Positions 57,546-57,635 of a stretch of 64,000 bases of DNA are shown piece by piece; position 1 is the stretch's first letter, and each line of letters starts with the position of its first letter. The translations under genes and the position numbers were made by a program. The stretch covers positions 496,001-560,000 of the forward strand of contig NADL03000546.1 of assembly GCA_002205965.3 (NCBI GenBank). Direction: 5' to 3'. The notes under the pieces were generated by a model, which was given only the letters and a program-made list of their open reading frames with translations, made no database searches and was not told the origin of the DNA. Origin of the DNA: Kappaphycus alvarezii (taxonomy: Eukaryota > Rhodophyta > Florideophyceae > Gigartinales > Solieriaceae).

Positions 57546-57635
57546 ATGGCGCATACAAAACAAACCGCCCGCAGGTCAACCGGCGGGAGGGATTCACGGC
57601 TGGAACTTGCTTGTATGGCTGCGAGGAAGAGACCG
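57546..57635 (+). other. Histone H3 N-terminal tail-like segment
   Basis: The codons encode [14 protein letters not shown] at positions 1-14 after the initiator Met. If Met is removed, as it is in H3, the free Ala1 and TKQTAR core read by many H3K4 readers would be exposed. Changes relative to H3: R2H, K9R, K14R, K18L, Q19E, K23M. K4, R8, R17, R26 and K27 are kept. Confidence 0.85.

Follow-up and report, generated by a model that had tools for sequence, protein, structure and literature searches.

Ty3/gypsy elements of Kappaphycus alvarezii carry an antisense accessory gene that opens with a conserved histone H3-like tail

The open frame that starts at position 57546 of the window (the whole stretch of 64,000 nucleotides analysed here) belongs to a retrotransposon and begins like a histone, which raises the question of whether this resemblance is real, how old it is and what it could bring to a mobile element. 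Compared with the host H3 tail (read from locus L010), 18 of the 27 residues that follow the Met are identical, ungapped and in register, in agreement with the count of about 18 given by the initial annotation. The next best ungapped match to the H3 tail in the six-frame window is 9/27, and eight shuffled windows gave best matches of 8 to 11 of 27. Among PDB sequences, a phmmer search with the 110 residues of the frame placed histone H3 on top (E = 1.7e-4). This E-value and the shuffled-window scores rule out a chance match.

The likeness to H3 ends near residue 27. No Pfam family was found in the 110-residue frame at E up to 1, none of the 26 histone matches in the genome lies inside the window, and the proteins scanned gave no Pfam histone, the closest signal being CBFD_NFYB_HMF in one of nine members (E 0.17). 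As a whole, the N-terminal tail sequence of a core histone H3 is present and its histone fold is absent, as had been claimed from the letters of this locus. The host H3 itself has one histone H3.3 sequence as its best PDB match. Two other host H3-like genes (L012 and L013) have tail and core in different frames, with a frame change or an intron within the tail.

The features of the locus are listed below; letters A to D and F denote groups of copies described further on.

49074..50500, plus strand: second accessory-gene copy, B/C-like, badly decayed (tblastn)
56886..57229, minus strand: 3' LTR (left), aligned with the right LTR over 369 columns, of which 339 are identical, 25 are gaps and 5 are mismatches
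57546..57629, plus strand: H3-tail-like N-terminus, Met and 27 residues in register with H3 1-27 (18/27 against host H3; PDB phmmer; nine groups)
57546..57878, plus strand: open frame of 110 codons and a stop, start of the antisense accessory gene, disrupted here (several other copies read further in frame)
57879..58931, plus strand: remainder of the accessory gene, in broken frames (tblastn with same-genome copies)
58373..58375, plus strand: conserved Cys codon (FRDFEGRC), candidate nucleophile (position derived from the tblastn alignment; motif across groups)
58720..58722, plus strand: conserved His codon (GPQHAVCLDA), candidate catalytic base (position derived from the tblastn alignment; motif across groups)
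59487..61808, minus strand: reverse transcriptase (RT), RNase H and integrase, interrupted frames (RVT_1, RT_RNaseH and Integrase_H2C2 above cut-off, 59886-61532)
61809..62690, minus strand: aspartic protease region (RVP_2 above cut-off)
63001..63942, minus strand: gag, weak Ty3_capsid match (Pfam below cut-off, E 0.0017)
63925..63941, minus strand: primer-binding-site-like start TGGTACTCTTGCGC, adjoining the 5' LTR (read from the sequence)
63942..64000, minus strand: 5' LTR (right), running beyond the window to about 64310 (C542:560310; locus L035)

The two LTRs differ by 5 mismatches in 344 ungapped columns and by 24 bases in length, the latter being a repeat unit located near 57056 on the left and near 214-237 of L035 on the right. 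The element is flanked by CTCTC and GTCTC, which resemble a 5-bp target-site duplication with one mismatch. On the minus strand, the order from right to left is gag, protease, RT, RNase H and integrase, with the gag and rve matches below cut-off. The H3-tail gene lies on the plus strand, between the end of pol and the 3' LTR, i.e. antisense to gag-pol. The proposal that the H3-tail mimic is made by a mobile element is therefore supported, and all the features of a Ty3/gypsy element with an antisense accessory gene were found: two LTRs, the gag-pol order and an antisense gene present in many copies. An H3L-type transduplication, for which one expects a DNA transposon bearing terminal inverted repeats together with the H3 globular domain, is ruled out, since this is an LTR element and no fold is present. 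On the right flank, L035 also holds a minus-strand open frame of 178 residues (454-987), which we take to resemble the end of a non-LTR reverse transcriptase.

Concerning the extent of the gene, the 110 codons and stop initially described are present, but they are only the start of a longer, broken gene reaching about 58931. Accessory-gene pieces were matched by tblastn at the window up to 58118 and at 58118-58678, 58669-58770 and 58779-58931. The second copy, at 49074-50500, has many stops and a tail that is barely H3-like, a picture of decay without selection.

The 110-residue frame gave at least 149 match rows in its own genome (336 Mb, 884 contigs), with 150 of 250 candidates scored. L110, a gypsy element with 66% pol identity and a far more divergent version of the gene, was used as a query for the divergent branch (F) and provided 131 further match rows, with identities down to 31%; another member gave 119 rows, partly at the same loci. 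The N-termini were read for 67 rows of the 110-residue search and for 32 rows of the 131-row search, mostly those starting near residue 1 in both cases, a choice by which tail-less relatives could be under-sampled; four rows starting near residues 27-47 (C75, C30, C458:529276 and C477) are outside these reads. A tail filter, requiring at least 7 matches in each tail half to an A, B or C tail, was passed by 57 of the 67 reads and dropped the other ten. The retained reads form groups A (as L002), B (as L091), C (tail MARTNQTARKSSGGKPPRKQLWQKAARK, as in L043) and D (P0001, L100 and L103). As for the F reads, 27 of 32 have an H3-like tail in register, several have a changed start codon, and one full-length open frame was found among them. 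They were divided into F1, F2, F3/4, F5 and F6/7, so that nine groups were drawn by hand in all, F3/4 and F6/7 being pools of small ones.

The A-D profile matches the F profile with a probability of 99.9 (E 5.5e-34, 391 columns), and the F profile by itself matches H3 in the PDB through its first 45 positions (E 2e-10). Each of the nine groups has a protein whose N-terminus corresponds to H3 residues 1 to about 26. From these comparisons, the A-D and F groups evidently form one gene family of common descent. The initial annotation had considered that other copies might lack the H3-like start, or that a chance H3 pseudogene might be present in this copy only. Neither holds: the great majority of the copies read pass the tail filter and the tail occurs in nine groups, which rules out a pseudogene insertion private to the window copy.

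Outside the genome, no relative was found with the 110-residue query. The 428-residue query retrieved P0001 and a 14-sequence profile retrieved P0004; the profile search scored only the 7995 candidates sharing most words and did not contain P0001, so that it misses relatives. Since P0001 and P0004 share a source label, and P0001 is identical to L048 in 275 of 276 residues, no wider distribution is demonstrable.

Several duplicated arrangements were also observed within the genome. L068 and L069 (C90:160281 on the plus strand and C90:161386 on the minus strand) are two inverted accessory-gene starts about 0.5 kb apart and identical over the 75 residues printed, C44 and C841 hold mirror-image duplicate gene matches, and twelve gypsy pol rows of equal score occur on C23, C27, C447, C479 and others. 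The C44/C841 duplicates and the twelve equal pol rows are a sign of either recent amplification or haplotype copies in the assembly.

The association of the gene with pol was analysed from both sides. Of ten flanks located after the gene, eight (groups A, B, C and D) contain integrase followed by RT, both on the other strand and in tail-to-tail orientation to the gene, and two (L060 and L064) are rearranged. Conversely, 79 of 82 pol rows (three fragment rows excluded) were paired with gene rows entered by hand from the contigs shared with pol: in 20 cases a gene row lies downstream at a distance of up to 6 kb, always on the opposite strand, no pol row has one upstream, and 59 have no gene row, a count in which truncated genes such as that of C669 are missed. 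A second inspection of the three lists by eye gave no additional pair. The distance amounts to 2.0 to 2.12 kb for 9 of 13 A, B or C pairs (the C551 label being assigned unread) and to 1.1 to 1.5 kb for the six F1 pairs, and the F2 copy on C453 has an RT at the expected position and strand. The best RT-RNase H-integrase pieces of group A match the window at 85-89% identity; those of D reach 72%, those of B 67-73% and those of C 60-68%. This range of 60-89% across gene-bearing groups indicates that the gene has long been carried along with the gypsy lineage.

The gene does not accompany every pol. No gene row lies close to either of two young-looking pol groups, one of 12 rows with equal score and the other of 7 rows at 55%, and the flanks of L105, L107 and L108 (three of these 19 rows) contain no trace of the gene. 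Two relatives of the element in the window are moreover deletion derivatives: on C792 (L145 and L144; C792:980650-981750), an open pol frame is accompanied only by MAHTKQTA, and on C669 (L109 494-595) about 34 codons of a B-type start lie beside pol. Judging by these derivatives and the gene-less families, a copy can exist without the full gene, or its body, in cis; the full accessory gene may work in trans or serve as an optional weapon. In a seemingly young gypsy family (L107 437-1780 and L108, on C509 and C48), which has no H3-tail gene, what follows pol is a long extension in which a module, ICLCFRTLNGPLL / ICMCFQTIHGAHL, is repeated, and in L108 pol reads on into this extension.

Selection was measured as pN/pS. 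Between groups, pS is saturated (0.63-0.92) and pN is 0.20-0.54, whereas within A, B and C, where many copies are dead, pN/pS is 0.32-0.45 for the tail and 0.36-0.45 for the body. With respect to host H3, pS is 0.69-1.01 and pN 0.22-0.40, which makes the capture of the H3 sequence an old one. In cross-branch pairs (L134 left out), identity is 52% for the tail and 26% for the body, and the tail exceeds the body in 25 of 25 pairs, these pairs being non-independent. Conserved amino acids next to saturated synonymous sites mean that the tail has been maintained. The tail filter does discard the most decayed tails and lowers pN somewhat, but unconstrained tails with saturated synonymous sites would hardly pass it. 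The purifying selection that the initial annotation put forward as a question is thus seen in the saturated synonymous sites, in pN below pS and in a tail more conserved than the body, and we regard the tail as evidently constrained at the protein level. Independent recent captures of host H3 are disfavoured by the saturation relative to host H3 and by the homology of the bodies.

Residue by residue, mean identities to H3 (85 tails in the nine groups, with F reads L115, L117, L121, L122 and L134 excluded) vary greatly. The best kept positions are K23 (.97), Q5 (.96), A7 (.90), T11 (.90), S10 (.87) and R26 (.87), followed by A24 (.86), T3 (.85) and R17 (.83); the lowest values are those of K14 (.21, mostly Arg), Q19 (.23), K18 (.29), K27 (.42), R8 (.42), K9 (.43) and K4 (.56). 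K23 is thus the best conserved lysine, and Lys is the commonest residue at position 23 in 9/9 groups. The initial annotation described K4 as kept and K9 as changed to Arg, and each statement applies to some groups. Position 4 is Asn in B and C and Arg in F3/4. At position 9, Arg prevails in A and Leu is found in F1, F2, F5 and two of the three F6/7 tails, while B, C, D and F3/4 retain the lysine. Position 14 has K or R as its commonest residue in eight of nine groups and is Thr or Ala in F3/4. At position 27, mostly Lys in A-D, F1 has Met (7/8) or Ile (1/8), F2 has Val in 8/9 and F5 in 2/3, and F3/4 has Ile or Val. The K27M-like feature, i.e. Met or Ile after Arg26, is therefore present in F1 and in two of the four F3/4 tails and absent from A-D, F2, F5 and F6/7. 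Around the target lysines, A7, S10, T11, the GG pair and A24-A25-R26 are retained. These natural variants at K4, K9, K14 and K27, with K23 and R26 nearly fixed, constitute a ready panel for finding the key contacts of the H3 tail.

The full product has roughly 420-480 residues and consists of the H3 tail, a lineage-specific body and, often, a basic C-terminus. A conserved Cys (GRCMQA / DLCIG) and a conserved His (QHAVC / HHCVTM), followed by an Asp, occur in reads of A, B, C, D, F1, F2, F3/4 and F5, the F6/7 reads stopping short of this region. Going by the motif, one may guess that the body is a cysteine peptidase, and the motif spacing would suggest a papain-like fold. Body profiles gave no peptidase, relative or fold among Pfam and PDB entries.

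Sequence comparison thus establishes the anatomy, the H3 homology, the N-terminal register, the antiquity and the conservation of this gene. Beyond these, our preferred reading, to which we give about an even chance, is that an old Ty3/gypsy accessory gene maintains a mimic of the H3 tail that would engage the host machinery binding this tail, perhaps as a methyltransferase pseudosubstrate. Once the Met is removed, the tail would be a counterfeit H3 N-terminus, gripped in the nucleus by host proteins that bind the H3 tail; in the version we favour, the methyltransferases responsible for silencing the element would be caught by it, as by a decoy or a pseudosubstrate. The context of the target lysines is kept and the lysine itself often blocked, by Arg or Leu at K9 and by Met, Ile or Val at K27. 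A more specific proposal, which we put forward tentatively and consider rather improbable, is that these swaps at K9 (Leu/Arg) and K27 (Met/Ile/Val) would turn the protein into a natural counterpart of an oncohistone that inhibits methylation at H3K9 and H3K27 and thereby helps the element to resist silencing.

Precedents exist elsewhere, those from Neurospora and yeast being analogies to the host. In Neurospora, DNA methylation is reported to be lost despite wild-type H3 when a further H3 gene carrying K9L, K9R or K14R is introduced, and likewise with S10A, T11A, G12P and G13M, while no such effect is given for K4L, K23Q and K27L (PMC3248561). For EZHIP, Met or Ile at the K27 position of the peptide or of an EZHIP-H3 fusion is reported to lower H3K27 methylation, Lys or Arg not, and the peptide alone to have no action in cells (PMC6513997). 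In the alga, four match rows in the genome correspond to the VEFS-box of PRC2 and 43 to SET domains, a SET match not telling the target. Several points weaken the decoy model: R8, needed by DIM-5, is not conserved (.42); K27 is retained in groups A-D, as is K9 in B, C, D and F3/4; in Neurospora, the effects come from whole H3 and also from mutating S10, T11, G12 and G13, which the elements keep; and the EZHIP peptide is inactive in cells by itself. The necessity of the gene is likewise weakened by the young-looking gypsy families and the deletion derivatives without it.

The main rival to the decoy reading, possible though clearly behind it, is a borrowed nuclear import signal, by which a Kap123-type tail would bring the accessory protein, or its complex, into the nucleus. 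H3 1-28 is described as an import signal read by the karyopherin Kap123 via K14 and K23, with residues 12-17 and 21-26 ordered in the crystal and a minor effect of K14R (PMC5677370). The near-fixation of K23, together with the retention of A24, A25, R26, G12, G13, P16 and R17, suits this explanation. However, the positions ordered with Kap123 are only weakly better conserved than the others (.71 vs.58, permutation p 0.087), Q5, A7, T3, S10 and T11 are equally conserved and yet disordered in the crystal, K14 is Thr or Ala in F3/4, and a basic, NLS-like C-terminal stretch could serve import by itself in 15 of 25 reads, counted with a loose pattern, with L110 and L111 being one locus and several other reads ending early. 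Targeting to chromatin instead of anti-silencing, e.g. by competing for a reader or by steering integration, would account for the kept N-terminal register, from which copies with an intact start are expected to have a free Ala N-terminus as in H3; relatives that lack the gene speak against it, and we hold it to be unlikely.

An equally unlikely explanation concerns the body rather than chromatin: the tail could be an intramolecular or substrate device of a papain-like cysteine peptidase, as a pseudosubstrate, as a propeptide or as a reflection of real H3-tail clipping. The recurrence of the Cys, the His and the subsequent Asp in eight of the nine groups favours such a device, whereas the searches in Pfam and the PDB returned no peptidase match and L134 has a Tyr in place of the conserved His. 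Finally, the tail might be a passive relic, the 5' end of an H3 gene captured once and so far merely undecayed. The closeness of every group to host H3 (pN 0.22-0.40) is what H3 ancestry predicts, but with synonymous sites saturated both between groups and relative to host H3, and with a tail twice as conserved as the body, this last explanation is very improbable. If the preferred reading is correct and enzymes acting on the H3 tail are engaged by this mimic, the element would exemplify directly how a retrotransposon can use histone mimicry against silencing.

Among known systems, the K27M-like peptide of EZHIP shares with some of these tails a Met or Ile after Arg, F1 reading KAARMS and L125 (F3) KAARIS, but EZHIP is a host protein with the peptide in its C-terminal part, and here A-D keep the Lys and inhibition is putative (PMC6513997). 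H3L, carried by the hAT-type DNA transposon of Pyrenophora tritici-repentis, is also described as H3-derived coding sequence in a mobile element; this H3-like protein was found via its globular domain, whereas the present element is a retrotransposon with the tail only, fused to an unrelated body (PMC3538342). The VANC proteins of VANDAL transposons are accessory proteins encoded by transposable elements that counter silencing, the same role as proposed here; they are reported to act sequence-specifically, and the abstracts mention no histone mimicry (PMC5735166, PMC10398659).

Viral mimics, such as the ARKS of SARS-CoV-2 ORF8 and influenza NS1, the H3-mimic motif of the latter being presumably short, are further parasite proteins with an H3-tail-like sequence. 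They are short motifs, whereas about 26 residues are found here, N-terminal, in register and conserved over deep divergence, a stretch longer than the ARKS-type motifs. The claim of histone mimicry by ORF8 is itself disputed in one paper (PMC10833455).

A likeness in position is that of the aORF-3R of Gypsy LTR retrotransposons (Grande gene23, RIRE2, Retand, Boty), likewise placed between pol and the 3' LTR and antisense; some of the plant products are nuclear, and their functions are described as undetermined for years (PMC7264820). The word 'histone' occurs 0 times in the available text of that paper, and the Kappaphycus gene differs by its H3-tail N-terminus. No earlier description of a retrotransposon protein that begins with an H3 tail was found in the open-licence literature; in the present case histone mimicry, itself a known phenomenon, is placed in the antisense gene of a retrotransposon. 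Gypsy antisense accessory genes have, going by the same source (PMC7264820), long been without a determined function; this one bears an explicit chromatin signature that can be tested.
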